Origin: Candidatus Omnitrophota bacterium
Lineage (GTDB): Bacteria; Omnitrophota; Omnitrophia; Omnitrophales; Aquincolibacteriaceae
Length of the DNA: 50,600 nt
Assembly: GCA_023247035.1 (NCBI GenBank)
Contig: JAHFHG010000010.1
Coordinates: forward strand, 1 to 50,600
Direction of reading: 5' to 3'
Shown here: piece after piece, positions 23,172 to 31,288 of the stretch
Layout of the letters: every line of letters begins with the position of its first letter
Numbering within the stretch: position 1 is the stretch's first letter
Notes under the pieces: model-generated
The model's input: only the letters and a program-made list of their open reading frames with translations
Database searches by the model: none
Told to the model about the DNA's origin: nothing
Made by a program: the position numbers and the translations under genes

Positions 23172-26100
23172 TTATTTTTTCTTTTCTTTGCTTTCCCTGC
23201 CTTCGCCTTCCCCGTCCGCGGAATCCGTTTGAGATTCTGAAGCCGCAAGCGCGGCGCCTTGGACGCCGTTGAAACTCTCAGATCCGATCTCGGAAGTTTC
23301 GGAGCTCGCCGGAGATCCCGGTCTTGCGGAAAAATTGACCCCCTTGGACGCGTTGTCCTCAAGCCAGGCCGCAATGGGGGTGGAAGCGGAGGCGCCTTGG
23401 AAGAATTCAGAAGTAACTTCCTCAGGCAAGTCGGCTCCCATTGAAACGCCTTGGAAACTATCCGCGCTTACTCCTGAAACAAAGAAAAGAGGAGACGCCA
23501 TCATGCCCAAGCCTTCTCCCATTGGAACGAAAATAAAGTTTTCAATAGAAGGCGGAAAGAAGTTTAAAGAGATTAAACTTTCATTTAATTCGGCCAAAGA
23601 AACCGTATCCTCAGGCTCGGCTGTGGAAGGCAGGCTGAAGAGCCAGGCGAAATTATTGAGCGAATCAACGCAGCCTAAGACGCATTGGAGGCTTGTAGCA
23701 TTCGCATTGTAGCTGTCTTTGACATCAAGGTATTCAACATTGCGCGTGGTGCCTTGCGGGTCAATCCGCCATTGGGTTCCGGATGCGTCCGAACGCAAAG
23801 ACAAAACGTTTCCGCTGGAGCCTTTCAGCGTCAAAGTGCCTGCGATGGTCTGTGTCGTCGATGCGGCAAAGGTCAACGTCTGGGCTGCGCTCACCGTTTT
23901 GGTCAAATTATTAAACGTTGTGCTGCCGGAAATGGTTTGATCGCCGCCGTCGAGCGTGACCGTTCCCGAGTTATGTGTAAATGTTCCGCCGGAATGGCTG
24001 AAATTTCCGCTGACGGTCAGCGTGCCGGAAGGAGCGGTCAGCGTGCCGCCCGAGAGCGTGAGCGCGCCGTTGACATCGTTTGTGCCGGAGCTTCCCGTGA
24101 ACGTCCCGCTCGAGATCGTGAGTCCTCCGTCAAAAGTCTGCGTCGCAGTCGAGGCTGAATACGTCCCGCCATTGACCGTGGCCAATCCCGTGGCGGTCGT
24201 CGTATTGCCGTTGGCGTTGTAAGTCCCGGCAGTGACGTTGAAGGCTCCTGCGATAGATTTCGCAGCCCCGGACTGGAAGGTGTCATTGGAATCCGTGGAA
24301 TTGATCGTCAGATTGTAATAATCCGTGCTGCCTGGATCGAGAATCGTGAAGGTATCCGCCGCCCCATCTCCGTCACCCACATAAAGCCAGGTACCGGAAT
24401 CGGTGTCCTGAGTTGTGAGAGTGACTGTTTCTCCACCTTGGAGTTTGAAGGTGCCGTTATTGACGAGGGTCGAGATGGTGACGTTTTCACTATTGAGCGA
24501 GAAGGTATCGTCAGTGCCGATGGTGAGAGTAGTAAAGGTCTGGCCTGAAGAAGACCCTGCGAGTTGAATGGTTTTGGAGCTTCCGTCTATGGTGACCGCC
24601 TTGAAGTTAGTGCCGGCCGCTGTATTGTCCGTAAGTGTGGAAGTGCTGCTTCCGTCAAACGTCCAGGTGCCCGAGTAAGCCGAGTTGTCAATTGTCCCGT
24701 TGGCGCCGACGCTCATATCTCCTGCGAGATTGACATTGGGATCATTGGTGGAGATATCGAAATCTCCGTCGGTGAGGGTAAAGGTATTGTTGACGTCCAA
24801 GGCGCCCGAGATGATAAAGTCATCGGAACCGCTGGCCCCTGAGTTGTTGAGAGTCAGGTTGTAGAGCGTGATGCCGTTTGTGGTGAAGGTCTGATCCGAG
24901 TTTCCGTCGAAAGTTACGGTGCCGGAATTATGGGTGAAGGTTGGGCTGCCCGAGACCGCGAAATTTCCGCTGACGGTCAGCGTGCCGGAAGGAGCGGTGA
25001 ACGTGCCGCCCGAGAGCGTGAGCGCGCCGTTGACATCGTTTGTGCCGGAGCTTCCCGTGAACGTCCCGCTCGAGATCGTGAGTCCTCCGTCAAAAGTCTG
25101 CGTCGCAGTCGAGGCTGAATACGTCCCGCCATTGACCGTGGCCAATCCCGTGGCGGTCGTCGTATTGCCGTTGGCGTTGTAAGTCCCGGCAGTGACGTTG
25201 AAGGCTCCTGCGATAGATTTCGCAGCCCCGGACTGGAAGGTGTCATTGGAATCCGTGGAATTGATCGTCAGATTGTAATAATCCGTGCTGCCTGGATCGA
25301 GAATCGTGAAGGTATCCGCCGCCCCATCTCCGTCACCCACATAAGCAAAAGTCCCGGAATTGGTGTCTTGAGTAAGTCCTGTAACTGTTTCCGACCCTTT
25401 CAATTTGACTGTGCCGTCGTTCGAGAACGTGGCCCCCGTCATCGTCCAGTTCAATCCGTTAAGATCAAACGTGCCGGCGGAATTGGTGAAATCCGTCGTC
25501 GTAGTCAAGTTGTTAGTGGCCAGCTGCAAGGTACCGGAACCGGAATGGGTGATGTTGGCGAAACTCGTGCCGCCGCTGTTGAAGGTCTGAGTGCCGGAAC
25601 CGTCGAAGGTGACGCGGTTCGTGCCGGGCGTGAATGTGCCTCCCGTCTGGGCCCAGTTGCCGCTCACCGTGAAGGTTCCGGAAGGCGCCGTCAATGTTCC
25701 GGAAGATAAAGTAACGGCTCCGTTCACGTCTGTTGTTCCGGAGCCGCCCGTATAAGTGCCGCCTGAAACCGTCAAGCCTCCGTCAAAAGTTTGCGTTGCG
25801 GTGGAAGCGGAATAAGTGCCGCCGCTTAAAGTGGCAAGGCCTGTAAACGTTGTCGTATTTCCGTTGGCATCGTAAGTGCCCGAAGAAAGTGTCAGAGCGC
25901 CCGCCACCGCTTTGGCCGCTCCCGATTGAATCGTATCGTTGGAGTCTGTGGTATTGATTTTTAGATCGTAATAATCCGTGCCGCCGAAATCAATGAGAGT
26001 AAACGTATCTGCCGCAGAATCGCCGTCGCCGATGTATTCCACCGTCCCCGAATCCGTGTCCAGATTACTGACGTTGGTTAAGGTCTCAGAACCCCGCAGC

Positions 26101-28577
26101 TTGAATGTCCCGGAATTTGAAACCGCTGCCGAAGAAGCGAATGAAAAATTGTTGCCGGCCAGAGCAAAAGTATTGCCGGAATTGATCGTCAGAGCGGACA
26201 TCTTGACGGCACTGCCCAGCGTGGTTGTCTTGCTCGAGCCGCCGATGACGACCGCTCCCAAGTCCTGTTTAGTGGTATTGGAATCCGTCAAAGTGAGCGA
26301 GCCGTCCAGAGTAAAGGCGGAGCTATTCGAAGACTTGGTGAACGTCGTGCCGCTGCTTAAGGTAACGTTCCCCGCCGCGTTCAAGGTAGAAGTGGATTGC
26401 TTAAACGTTCCGGCCGTCAGATCAAAGGTGCCGGCTACGACCGATGCCGCACCCAACTGAAAGATGTCTGTCGTGCCATCCGTAGACCAAACCTGCAGAT
26501 TAAAGTAATCCGTTGACCCAAAATCTTTAATCGTATAGGTGTCCGCAGCGCTGTCCCCATCACCTAAATAAAGCCAGGCCCCGGAATCTATATCATTGGT
26601 TAAACCGGTGATGGTCTCGGATCCGACCAGTTGCAAAGTTCCGCTCGCCGTATTAGAAAAAGTTGCTCCCGTCATGGTCCAGTTCTGGCCGTTTAAAAGG
26701 AAAGTGCCGGCATTGGTCACAGAACTCGTTACGGTCAGGTCGGTGGTAAGGGCTATATAAGCCCCGCTGGCGACGCTGATCGCATTATAACTTCCTGTGG
26801 AGCTGAAAAGCTGGAGCGTCCCGTCCCCATCAAACGTGAGCGTCCCGCTGCGGGAGGTGAAGGTCGAGTTGCCTACAAAGTATCCAGCTACATTGATTCC
26901 ATAATTGCTCGTACTCACATCCAGATTGCAAGTCGAGAGGGTGATCGATCCATTCGCATCCATTGCCGCGCCCAACTGGAAGATATCGACCGCGTCCGAG
27001 GCGCTGAAGGTCACGTTATAATAATCCACCGTTCCGGATCCAAAATCTTTGACGGTATAGGTATCCACCGCGCCGTCATTGTCTCCTTTATAAAGAACAG
27101 TCCCGGAGTCCGTGTCCAGGTTCAAGACATTGGTAAAAGTTTCGCTGCCGATGAGCGTGAAGGTGCCGACGTTGCTTACTGCTGTGGAAGAGTCGAATCC
27201 TAAATCCTGGCCGTTGATGTCAAACGTCACGTCGGCATTGTTGATCGTCAAGCCGGTCAGTGAAGTGACGGCGTTGTTGGCCGTGTACGTGGGAGCCGAG
27301 CTGGCCGACCGGTCCAGAGTTAAAGCGGCGACATTGGTGATTGTCCTTAAAGTGGAATTCCCGGAGGTATAAATAGTCAAGTTTTTGTTGCCGCCCACGA
27401 TAGACGAACCGGAATTCATACTGAAAGTCCCCGCTCCGCTGTCGTCACTGTCGGCGTCGAATACCGTGTTTCCGGTAAGGGTAATGACCGCGTTCGTATT
27501 CACAGTGATGTCGGCTACGTCGGAGGTCGTCCCGGTATAGTTTCCAGTGTCCAGAGTGACCGCGTTATCGGCATTTTGAACATAGGCGTGTCCAGGCGCA
27601 TAAGTTCCTCCGACGTGAAAGGAAGCTCCTTTTTCATAAAGGATATCCGATTGGAGTTCCCCTGTGCTTTGGATCGCTCCGGTCTCGTTACTGATCAGCT
27701 CGATCACTCCGTCCTTGCCGGCCACGGCTTTGTCTGCGCGGATAATCCCTTCCTGATTGATGGCGCGATCGAAGAGACCGGCCGCAGCCTGGGCATTGAG
27801 GCTGACAGTCCCTCCCTGCGCCTCGATCCGGCCGGACTGTTTGATCTGATCCGAAATGGGATTTCCTTCGGCGTCAAGCACCTGGTGAGAAGTCTCCTTG
27901 TCGATTCCCACGGAAATTTGCCCTCCCGATGAAACTCCTACAGTCACCACATCGCCCGCGGCCAGGGAAACGGTTCCGAGCGGCGCCTTGATCGAACCTT
28001 CATTTGAAACAGCGCTCCCTACCAGCACCGCAAAGCCTCCTTCCCGGGTTTCGATCAATCCCTGATTCGTCACCTCCTTAAAATTTTCCTGAACGGTGTG
28101 ATCCATATTTCCGAAAACGTAATTCCCGTTCAGGAAGTGTTCATTTGAAATGTCGTGCGTGGAAGCAATCAATCCTCCCACATTGACCATTGCAGTCGGG
28201 GCAAAAAGAATTCCTGCGAGGTTGACAAGGGTGAGGTTGCCGTTTGCGGTAAGGGCGCCAAAAATTTCGGTGGGAGAGTTTCCGATCACGCGGTTTAAAA
28301 CAAAAGAATCCGACGAAGGCTGGAAAAAATTGACGATTTGATTCTGGCCAATGTCGAAGGAATGGTATTCCAGGATTGCCTGATCCGAAGCCGTGATGTT
28401 TGTGGTGTTGGCATCGGGATGTTCAACCGTCGCAGTGCCGGAAATAACTTGCGGATCTTCGAAGGCCAAAACAGGAAAAACGGGATAGAAGAAAGAGAAA
28501 ATAGTGAAGATGAATATAAAGCAAGAAGTAAAAAATCGATTCTTTCTGATTATTCTTTGATCTGTTGTAATCAGCAT
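23172..28577 (-). CDS. Very large two-partner-secretion exoprotein (TpsA-like, filamentous haemagglutinin type)
   Basis: An 1801-residue secreted protein. A long signal peptide (hydrophobic FIFIFTIFSFFYPVFPVLAF) precedes a TPS/haemagglutination-activity domain at about residues 40-300, recognised by DQAILEYHSFDIGQNQIVNFFQPSSDSFVLNRVIG, ALTANGNLTLVNLAGILF and the GGLIAS-NEG--T-G beta-helix pattern. The rest is Thr/Ser/Gly-rich beta-solenoid repeats. Five copies of a GDGDxAADTxT-type motif occur, encoded near 27060-27095, 26540-26575, 26010-26040, 25310-25344 and 24350-24384. The last two belong to an exact duplication (24042-24384 and 25002-25344). A Cys pair (QCVLGCV) lies about 150 residues before a charged C-terminus. 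It follows its presumed transporter tpsB. An adhesin or contact role is inferred. Confidence 0.9.
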   Translation of the reverse strand: MLITTDQRIIRKNRFFTSCFIFIFTIFSFFYPVFPVLAFEDPQVISGTATVEHPDANTTNITASDQAILEYHSFDIGQNQIVNFFQPSSDSFVLNRVIGNSPTEIFGALTANGNLTLVNLAGILFAPTAMVNVGGLIASTHDISNEHFLNGNYVFGNMDHTVQENFKEVTNQGLIETREGGFAVLVGSAVSNEGSIKAPLGTVSLAAGDVVTVGVSSGGQISVGIDKETSHQVLDAEGNPISDQIKQSGRIEAQGGTVSLNAQAAAGLFDRAINQEGIIRADKAVAGKDGVIELISNETGAIQSTGELQSDILYEKGASFHVGGTYAPGHAYVQNADNAVTLDTGNYTGTTSDVADITVNTNAVITLTGNTVFDADSDDSGAGTFSMNSGSSIVGGNKNLTIYTSGNSTLRTITNVAALTLDRSASSAPTYTANNAVTSLTGLTINNADVTFDINGQDLGFDSSTAVSNVGTFTLIGSETFTNVLNLDTDSGTVLYKGDNDGAVDTYTVKDFGSGTVDYYNVTFSASDAVDIFQLGAAMDANGSITLSTCNLDVSTSNYGINVAGYFVGNSTFTSRSGTLTFDGDGTLQLFSSTGSYNAISVASGAYIALTTDLTVTSSVTNAGTFLLNGQNWTMTGATFSNTASGTLQLVGSETITGLTNDIDSGAWLYLGDGDSAADTYTIKDFGSTDYFNLQVWSTDGTTDIFQLGAASVVAGTFDLTAGTFKQSTSTLNAAGNVTLSSGTTFTKSSNSSAFTLDGSLTLTDSNTTKQDLGAVVIGGSSKTTTLGSAVKMSALTINSGNTFALAGNNFSFASSAAVSNSGTFKLRGSETLTNVSNLDTDSGTVEYIGDGDSAADTFTLIDFGGTDYYDLKINTTDSNDTIQSGAAKAVAGALTLSSGTYDANGNTTTFTGLATLSGGTYSASTATQTFDGGLTVSGGTYTGGSGTTDVNGAVTLSSGTLTAPSGTFTVSGNWAQTGGTFTPGTNRVTFDGSGTQTFNSGGTSFANITHSGSGTLQLATNNLTTTTDFTNSAGTFDLNGLNWTMTGATFSNDGTVKLKGSETVTGLTQDTNSGTFAYVGDGDGAADTFTILDPGSTDYYNLTINSTDSNDTFQSGAAKSIAGAFNVTAGTYNANGNTTTATGLATVNGGTYSASTATQTFDGGLTISSGTFTGSSGTNDVNGALTLSGGTFTAPSGTLTVSGNFAVSGSPTFTHNSGTVTFDGNSDQTFTTNGITLYNLTLNNSGASGSDDFIISGALDVNNTFTLTDGDFDISTNDPNVNLAGDMSVGANGTIDNSAYSGTWTFDGSSTSTLTDNTAAGTNFKAVTIDGSSKTIQLAGSSSGQTFTTLTIGTDDTFSLNSENVTISTLVNNGTFKLQGGETVTLTTQDTDSGTWLYVGDGDGAADTFTILDPGSTDYYNLTINSTDSNDTFQSGAAKSIAGAFNVTAGTYNANGNTTTATGLATVNGGTYSASTATQTFDGGLTISSGTFTGSSGTNDVNGALTLSGGTLTAPSGTLTVSGNFSHSGGTFTHNSGTVTLDGGDQTISGSTTFNNLTKTVSAAQTLTFAASTTQTIAGTLTLKGSSGNVLSLRSDASGTQWRIDPQGTTRNVEYLDVKDSYNANATSLQCVLGCVDSLNNFAWLFSLPSTAEPEDTVSLAELNESLISLNFFPPSIENFIFVPMGEGLGMMASPLFFVSGVSADSFQGVSMGADLPEEVTSEFFQGASASTPIAAWLEDNASKGVNFSARPGSPASSETSEIGSESFNGVQGAALAASESQTDSADGEGEGRESKEKKK
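24042..24384 (-). repeat. 343 bp perfect direct repeat in the exoprotein gene, copy A
   Basis: Identical base for base to 25002-25344, offset 960 bp (320 codons), so the frame is kept. The identity stops abruptly at both ends, with near identity (two mismatches) for about 40 bases just to the left. A third, clearly diverged copy covers about 25660-26030. Confidence 0.9.
25002..25344 (-). repeat. 343 bp perfect direct repeat in the exoprotein gene, copy B
   Basis: Second exact copy of the repeat at 24042-24384. It encodes the same module of 114 residues, from the TFTAPSG-side Ser/Gly-rich strands back to GDGDGAADTFTILDPGSTDYYNL. Exact identity at synonymous sites points to recent duplication or gene conversion. 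Confidence 0.9.
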
Positions 28578-28704: not shown

Positions 28705-30381
28705 TTACACTTCCATTTGCAGCTGGAAGTGCAGGCGCGTGTGGTCGGATTCGGTAAGAGGTTCCTGGCCGATGGCGTGGCCGATTTCGACGCGCGCGGA
28801 AAGATATTCTTTTAAACGAATCCGCAAGCCGCCTCCCAAACCCATCAGGTGGCGTTTTTTGAATTCCGCCGCAGAAGCGCCGCGAAGCCGGCCGTATCCT
28901 TCATCAAAAAAAACAACTCCTTCGAGGGCCGGGATTTTCCAAAAAGGCAGCGGGATGGGAAATAAATATTCGAAGCTGAACAGAACGGCTTGATCCGCCA
29001 AATAATCTCCTTCCGGATATCCGCGCACCGTGCCGGCGCCGCCCAAATAAAATTCTTCCTGAGACAGAAGTTTGTCCAAGGAAACTTGATAGTCCAATTT
29101 AAAACTCGTCCGGCTTCCAAAAGGCATTCTGAGAATACGGGAAATACTGCCCGTATATTTCACAAAACTGGGGTCCGCGCTGACGCGTCCCGACAAAGGA
29201 TTGCCTTCGCCTGAGGCCCCGAGCCCATTGAGGCCAAAACCAAACTGATTGGAAAGAAGAGTGTATCCCTTCGAATCGTATTCCGTCAGATCCGCCGCGG
29301 GACGCAGAACACGGAGACGTTCCCGCCGCCGGACCCCGCTAACGTCCCGGCTGCGGCTTTCTTTAAAATCAAATCCGAAGGATAAATTGGCGGCCAGCCG
29401 GTCGGTCTGCATCAAAGCCTGGCGCAGGGAAATCGAATAACTGCTGGAATCGCCGTGGACATCCGAACCTTTAAATTCCCTTTTTGGGGCGGCCTGGGAA
29501 TGGCTGAAGCCGAAAATAGCTTGAGTGCCGAACGAGGTCAAGGGGACGAGATATTGCGCATAAATCGCGCCGAAATCTTTGCCGAACACGGTGCCGATAA
29601 GAAAGATACTATCCGGGATCAAAGCGTTATTGTAGCGGGCCATAAATCCGTAGCGCCTTCTGCCCGTGGTTTTGCTTCCCTGGTTATCATATTGAAAACG
29701 CCCGTGGCCCGGAAACTTGTCTTTTATTTTCAGATAAACGTCCGTGGCTGCAGCTTCCTTGCCCGGCCGAAGCACGATTTGGGCTTGACGGTCCGGATTG
29801 CCGTTGATTCTCCGCAGGCTCTTTTGAAGCTCCTCATATTGAAGGGGCTCTCCCTCTCTGAGCGTCCAGTAGCGCCGGACGGCCTGATCGGAAAACCAGC
29901 GGCTGCCTTCGATATAGAGCTTGCCGAACTTGCCTTCGAGGACTGTAAGGGTCAGGCGGCCTGATTCCACCCGCTGAGGAGGAACAAAAACAAGCGTTGT
30001 GATATAGCCGCGGCGGCGGTGCTCCTGTTGGAGGAGTTTCGCCAATCGGTTGGCTTCCGTTAAGGTAAGTTCGCGGCCTTCGAAAGGTTTCAGAAAGGGA
30101 CGCAATTCCTCAGGGGGAATAAGCCGGCTTCCTTGAAGGACAATTTCCCGGACGAAAAATTTCAGCTCGCCTTCCGCCTTTGGCTTTTCCGGTTCCGGGG
30201 CCTTTTTAATCAATGGTTTTTTCTTGCGCTTTGTCTTCAAAACCTCTGAGCGCGACTCTTCGAAGGCCCGCTGGTCAATCACGTCCGCCTCGCTGGAGTG
30301 AGGGGGCTGCTGGGGCTCCTCCGCAAAAAGGCGGGCTGCCCCCAGGAAGATGATAAGGAATAAAGGGACAGGGACTTTCAT
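28705..30381 (-). CDS. Two-partner-secretion outer-membrane transporter (TpsB, ShlB/FhaC family)
   Basis: About 558 residues. From the ATG at 30381 there is a clean signal peptide (MKVPVPLFLIIFLGAARLFA); a longer frame opens at 30432. A proline-rich linker and two POTRA domains follow (about residues 95-240; motifs VLQGSRLIPPEELRPFLKPFEGRELT and LYIEGSRWFSDQAVRRYWTLREGEPL). The C-terminal half is a 16-strand barrel with the VRGYPEGDYLADQAVLFS motif (the conserved V-R-G-Y/F in loop 6), ending in a terminal strand rich in aromatic and charged alternation (HTRLHFQLQMEV). It would move the TpsA protein encoded directly downstream across the outer membrane. Confidence 0.93.
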   Translation of the reverse strand: MKVPVPLFLIIFLGAARLFAEEPQQPPHSSEADVIDQRAFEESRSEVLKTKRKKKPLIKKAPEPEKPKAEGELKFFVREIVLQGSRLIPPEELRPFLKPFEGRELTLTEANRLAKLLQQEHRRRGYITTLVFVPPQRVESGRLTLTVLEGKFGKLYIEGSRWFSDQAVRRYWTLREGEPLQYEELQKSLRRINGNPDRQAQIVLRPGKEAAATDVYLKIKDKFPGHGRFQYDNQGSKTTGRRRYGFMARYNNALIPDSIFLIGTVFGKDFGAIYAQYLVPLTSFGTQAIFGFSHSQAAPKREFKGSDVHGDSSSYSISLRQALMQTDRLAANLSFGFDFKESRSRDVSGVRRRERLRVLRPAADLTEYDSKGYTLLSNQFGFGLNGLGASGEGNPLSGRVSADPSFVKYTGSISRILRMPFGSRTSFKLDYQVSLDKLLSQEEFYLGGAGTVRGYPEGDYLADQAVLFSFEYLFPIPLPFWKIPALEGVVFFDEGYGRLRGASAAEFKKRHLMGLGGGLRIRLKEYLSARVEIGHAIGQEPLTESDHTRLHFQLQMEV

Positions 30382-30418
30382 ACTAAAGCTCGTTTTGCAA
30401 AAACGGACGATTCGATCT

Positions 30419-31288
30419 TTAAATAGAGGCATTCTTCGATGAAATGTTCCTGCGCCGTTTTGAGGCTTCCGCCAACATCCGCCAAAGTAAAGCGCCCTGT
30501 TTTCTGTTCAATGCTTTTTTGAATTGTTTGATCACCCTTTCGAACCGGCTTAATGATTCAAAAACCTTCCGCCGGTTCTCCAAAAAAATGGGGCCCCACA
30601 AAGAGGGATGGCCCTGGGCGATCCTCGTGGTGTCGCGGAATCCTTGGGCGGAAAAATCAAGCGATTGAGGCGGTACGGAAAGCATCAGGCACACCGCCAG
30701 CGCGTGAGGAAGGTGGCTGATCCGGCTTACAATCAAGTCGTGTTTTTCGCAAGTCACTTCAATCACGCGCCCGCCCAGGAAGCGCCAAAAGGATTTGACG
30801 CGGGCGATACTTTTCTCAGAAGTTCCGGGAGAGCGGATCACGAAAATCAAACTGTTCTGATAAAGTTTTTCACACGCCGCTTCGATTCCCCTCACGTGCG
30901 ATCCTGCCATTGGGTGGGCGCCTACAAATTGAATGTTCTTAAACTTTTTTTTGGCCGCCCACCGGACGATCTCCCCTTTAATGCTCCCGACGTCCGTGAC
31001 GATCGTGCCGGGACGGGCAGACGAATCAATCTTACCGAGAAGATATTTGAGGACATTAACGGGCGTGCAGACAATCACGATATCCGCCCGGGCCGAATCT
31101 TTAAGCTCGCGGCTTGCGGTATGAACCCATTTTTTCCGGAGGGCAATCCTTCGTGAAGAGGCGCTGCGGCTGATGCCGAGGATACGGCTTCGCGGAAACT
31201 TGGCGCGGCAAGCCGCGGCCAAGGAGCCTCCCATCAATCCGAGCCCCACAATCGCTATCGTTCGGGGTTTAAAAGAAGGCTGAGACAT
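30419..31288 (-). CDS. tyrA: Prephenate dehydrogenase
   Basis: NAD(P)-dependent oxidation of prephenate to 4-hydroxyphenylpyruvate on the tyrosine branch. A Rossmann motif lies at the start (IAIVGLGLMGGSLAAACR). Family motifs include VIVCTPVN, VTDVGSIKGEIVRWA, FVGAHPMAGSHVRGIEAA, VSRISHLPHALAV and the helical GFRDTTRIAQGHPSLWGPIFLENR. At 289 residues it is single-domain length without a chorismate mutase or ACT extension. It lies 181 bases from aroF, separated by a palindromic repeat, and runs into the TPS genes with little or no gap. Confidence 0.94.
   Translation of the reverse strand: MSQPSFKPRTIAIVGLGLMGGSLAAACRAKFPRSRILGISRSASSRRIALRKKWVHTASRELKDSARADIVIVCTPVNVLKYLLGKIDSSARPGTIVTDVGSIKGEIVRWAAKKKFKNIQFVGAHPMAGSHVRGIEAACEKLYQNSLIFVIRSPGTSEKSIARVKSFWRFLGGRVIEVTCEKHDLIVSRISHLPHALAVCLMLSVPPQSLDFSAQGFRDTTRIAQGHPSLWGPIFLENRRKVFESLSRFERVIKQFKKALNRKQGALLWRMLAEASKRRRNISSKNASI

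Follow-up and report, generated by a model that had tools for sequence, protein, structure and literature searches.

A 343-bp exact repeat in a two-partner-secretion exoprotein gene of an Omnitrophota bacterium, probably derived from gene conversion between two old modules

Sequence comparison within tpsA, the exoprotein gene in the window (the whole 50.6 kb stretch of DNA that was analysed), demonstrated that two of its three homologous modules share 343 bp without a single difference. This identity is likely to have arisen by gene conversion between two old modules and not by the recent gain of a module. The gene, its parts and its partner are listed below.

23172..28577, minus strand: tpsA, secreted exoprotein of 1801 aa (open frame; PF05860, TIGR01901)
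27735..28406, minus strand: TPS secretion domain, aa 58-281 (profile match)
25635..26129, minus strand: module C3, diverged, about aa 817-981 (repeat alignment)
24948..25442, minus strand: module C2, aa 1046-1210 (repeat alignment)
25002..25344, minus strand: identical core in C2, aa 1079-1191 (exact repeat; patch 24960-25344)
24483..24947, minus strand: linker B between C2 and C1, aa 1211-1365 (53% identical to the linker in G036:C2)
23988..24482, minus strand: module C1, aa 1366-1530 (repeat alignment)
24042..24384, minus strand: identical core in C1, aa 1399-1511 (exact repeat; patch 24000-24384)
23613..23987, minus strand: C-terminal unit after C1, aa 1531-1655 (50-66% identical in several Omnitrophota exoproteins)
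28705..30432, minus strand: tpsB, outer-membrane transporter partner (POTRA_2 and ShlB above the Pfam cut-offs)

The TpsA protein is composed of a TPS domain, a passenger of beta-helical repeats and a 147-aa tail. The gene scored 89.1 bits against PF05860 (curated cut-off, 33.5 bits) and 71.2 bits against TIGR01901 (curated cut-off, 29.1 bits), and its TPS domain matched the secretion domains of EtpA, HMW1 and HxuA by sequence. As tpsB lies directly upstream, the profile matches indicate that tpsA and tpsB are a two-partner-secretion pair. Housekeeping genes surround the pair: those for aromatic amino-acid synthesis and scpB lie on one side, and the other side carries genes for an S1-domain protein and a ketoacyl synthase. 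Judged by its defining domain and its partner, the gene is an ordinary tpsA. Like FHA, HMW1, EtpA and CdrA, it combines a TPS domain and an adjacent TpsB gene with long imperfect repeats that are predicted to be beta-helical. It differs from these TpsA proteins in that the Omnitrophota passenger modules belong to no Pfam family, in that no relatives of the 147-aa tail were found among the exoprotein loci compared, and in its NPNG-type motif, which is NLAG here. The motif site reads VNLAG (28212-28226, aa 118-122), compared with INPQG in the G034 relative, and the TIGR01901 cut-off was still passed. Our literature search for Omnitrophota together with two-partner secretion or hemagglutinin returned nothing.

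Two further observations concern the history of the pair. TpsB and the TPS domain are 44-53% identical to those of some genomes from other families, compared with 28-38% (TpsB) for members of the same family, and this sequence pattern suggests a transfer of the tpsA/tpsB pair between Omnitrophota families. The TpsA of G034:C43 (L069 2-2521) has a TPS domain 49-51% identical to that of the window and a very different passenger with 77-aa FG-GAP-like repeats, which suggests, at the level of sequence, passenger swapping behind a common secretion domain.

The identical core sits within a longer homologous module of approximately 165 aa, and the modules show a 20-residue period. An AlphaFold2 model of aa 1040-1540 (501 aa; mean pLDDT, 92.3) consisted of regular coils with three short strands each, and the passenger is accordingly predicted to be a regular beta-helix of 20-residue coils. 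The beta-helix arrangement is the one expected for TpsA exoproteins (PMC5422565). A Foldseek search of the modelled region against the PDB gave no match at E ≤ 0.001, so the assignment rests on the model itself. Because the period is 20 residues, the distance of 320 codons between the two cores corresponds to 16 coils.

An exact 343-bp duplication at a distance of 320 codons had been claimed for this gene, and it was borne out: 24042-24384 matches 25002-25344 at every base, and the offset of 960 bp is divisible by three and keeps the frame. The 42 bp adjoining on the left contain only two mismatches (24039 and 24041), and with these included the near-identical patch extends over 385 bp (24000-24384 and 24960-25344). 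No other direct repeat of at least 20 bp was present in the window, and the longest exact repeat in 200 codon shuffles of the gene was at most 16 bp. The two cores encode the same peptide over 113 aa, and base-for-base identity includes the synonymous sites, with 115 of 115 third codon positions in agreement. The diverged third copy that had been described to the right also exists (25653-26030, 67-70% identical to the repeat); because tpsA is read from the minus strand, the right-hand side is the N-terminal one. The core is 68% identical to that of C3 overall, and 35% at third positions.

The sequence surrounding the cores carries the case for conversion. The flanks of the core in C1 and C2 are homologous and diverged (62% and 59% identical), with only 45% and 30% identity at third positions. 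The two modules agree at 110 polymorphic sites in succession, a run length that none of 20,000 permutations reached. An identical tract with diverged homologous sequence on both sides, in conflict with the relationships of the flanks, is the pattern by which a gene-conversion tract is recognised.

The modules were also compared with exoproteins from 47 genomes of the order, none of them of the same genus, in which the closest TpsB was 48% identical. A contig scan of the genome collection yielded three relatives, two of which are named as Omnitrophota. The layout comparison has one clear relative, contig C2 of genome G036, which belongs to another family of the order. G036:C2 has the same module-linker-module order, with its modules 951 bp (317 codons) apart instead of 960 bp (320 codons), and no exact repeat longer than 30 bp was found between its two modules. 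The sequence following C2 is closest to that following module c1 of G036 (62%, compared with 39% to the sequence following C1), and the sequence following C1 is closest to that following module c0 (59%). The cores show a different relationship, being 96% identical to each other over the 80-aa block compared and approximately 71-72% identical to their G036 counterparts. L035 has the linker downstream of C3 at 82% identity, and several genera have the unit that follows C1; each of the three module contexts was found separately in other genera. The contexts of all three modules are therefore old, and what is new is confined to the core common to C1 and C2, a pattern that carries the signature of conversion. 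Since the module-linker-module layout exists with diverged cores in another family, there is no indication of a recent change in length.

In the mechanism that we infer, the three homologous modules of approximately 165 aa (C3, C2 and C1) are old, and a non-crossover homologous recombination event, presumably RecA-dependent and between sister chromosomes, would recently have replaced approximately 385 bp of one C-terminal module with the sequence of the other. The third-position composition of the core differs from that of both flanks and points to neither module as the donor. The copying would have erased the differences between the cores of C1 and C2 while the flanks stayed diverged, and the reading frame and protein length would have been unaffected. 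The mismatches at 24039 and 24041 would have to be ascribed to a mosaic edge or to a small event of their own. The common 385-bp stretch would now favour further deletions or expansions of 960 bp (16 coils), and a future in-frame event of this kind through the 343-bp homology is possible. Homogenisation of modules is a known process and part of the ordinary evolution of repeat-rich surface proteins. The original prediction had spoken of recent gain or conversion; conversion is supported by the data, and recent gain is not, given the diverged flanks and the two-module layout in another family. The further expectation that the event would alter the length of the fibre is not supported either, as conversion leaves the length as before.

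A recent gain would mean that linker B and one module were inserted or duplicated beside an existing module, lengthening the protein by 320 residues. The offset, an exact multiple of three and equal to 16 coils, is in keeping with such an event, but a tandem duplication of 960 bp would extend the identity past the core, whereas the sequences after C1 and C2 differ and are both old. A simple 960-bp tandem duplication is ruled out by this difference, and with the same layout and diverged modules present in G036:C2, we regard a recent gain in any form as highly improbable. Selection on the protein, keeping the cores identical in the absence of recombination, would account for the identical peptides across 113 aa. 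The same peptide encoded with independent codon choice is expected to show 75% identity (maximum of 83% in 2000 draws), in contrast to the complete agreement of third positions observed, and C3, which belongs to the same gene, is free to vary. Selection on the protein alone is thereby ruled out by the synonymous sites, and we attach next to no probability to it. A donor located elsewhere in the genome was also considered and rejected, as no further copy of the module was found in the assembly (1.85 Mb, ~93% complete).

An assembly effect deserves closer consideration. The window's genome is metagenome-assembled (64 contigs), and a short-read metagenome assembler may have merged modules that differ or given a wrong copy number of the linker-module unit. 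Repeat background was sampled in 24 contig stretches covering 392 kb of this genome, which appears to be a short-read de Bruijn assembly with k of approximately 121. A 121-bp exact duplication surrounds a 100-N gap in G000:C3 (L088 1869-2210) and is a scaffolding artefact; a 121-bp repeat lies at the end of G000:C16, and the ends of C7 and C21 overlap by 120 bp. Relatives show similar features. In G027:C109 (L062 12875-13858), an exoprotein gene is broken into two frames by a 100-N gap flanked by 127-bp duplications, and G029:C69 starts with a 141-bp repeat. The exoprotein reading frames listed for relatives hit a contig end in 24 of 35 cases, and in G036 about 12 of ~60 contig ends fall within ~3.9% of the sequence, compared with 2.3 expected (rounded values). 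Frames running into contig ends were seen in G036, G029, G027, G033 and G038 (L005, L051-L064, L080). These breaks and misjoins at repeats indicate that short-read genomes tend to lose or interrupt the long repeats of the exoprotein family.

Several features of the repeat in the window speak against such an effect. The window contains no N, 343 bp is not the k-mer length, and the repeat is in frame with its edges inside older homology. Since the repeat is longer than k, read pairs or longer reads, probably read pairs, would have been needed to bridge it. Linker B is joined to a module at both ends, which means that the assembly graph itself implies the order module-B-module, and with both module-linker junctions in the contig, a collapse would more readily conceal further copies than create one. 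A merger could mask no more than a few differences, leaving the copies still recently homogenised; a few true differences between C1 and C2 could have been lost in this way, which would not affect the conclusion of recent homogenisation. The collapse or misjoin named as the main alternative in the original prediction thus gains some credit from the overlaps near k, the 100-N gaps elsewhere and the misjoins in relatives, and loses it at the repeat itself, which has no gap. Overall, we consider an assembly effect unlikely, and gene conversion between C1 and C2 is retained as the preferred explanation.

Two known systems offer comparisons. In meningococci, recombination of tpsA with separate tpsC cassettes exchanges the 3' end of the gene (PMC3848433). 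As in that system, recombination within tpsA would move sequence between homologous segments, but here both partners are in the same gene. No silent cassettes of the tpsA/tpsC type were found in the ~93% complete genome, which has one gene with a TPS domain and no module outside tpsA. Periscope Proteins change their length through identical repeats, and Esp and CdrA have been cited as variants in repeat number (PMC8201768). The surface location of the protein and the presence of DNA-identical modules that could recombine, altering length in frame, are similar here. Unlike the homogeneous tandem array of Periscope Proteins, two near-identical modules are separated by a different, unrelated linker of 155 aa, and the third copy is only 68% identical. 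By analogy, the locus may behave like the tpsA/tpsC or Periscope systems.

Exoprotein genes of other genera commonly contain exact repeats of 30-79 bp that preserve the frame. G036:C18 contains 15 of them, every offset being a multiple of three, and an exoprotein gene in G027:C135 has a frame-keeping identical patch of 118 bp between flanks of 78% and 46% identity. It is conceivable, as a tentative proposal that we would not yet favour, that the conserved beta-helix modules of Omnitrophota exoproteins are standing sites of recombination, at which units of the passenger become uniform, are lost or pass from one gene or lineage to another. If this is true, fibre repertoires would evolve by the shuffling of modules around a few common cores, and the window would represent one recent event.

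In short-read genomes, exact in-frame repeats of these genes coincide with broken contigs and erroneous joins, so the length or copy number given for an Omnitrophota exoprotein should not be relied on without long reads. In an uncultured phylum, the locus exemplifies the homogenisation of modules within a secreted fibre; should the modules indeed serve for recombination, the diversification of giant surface proteins in Omnitrophota would be easier to understand.
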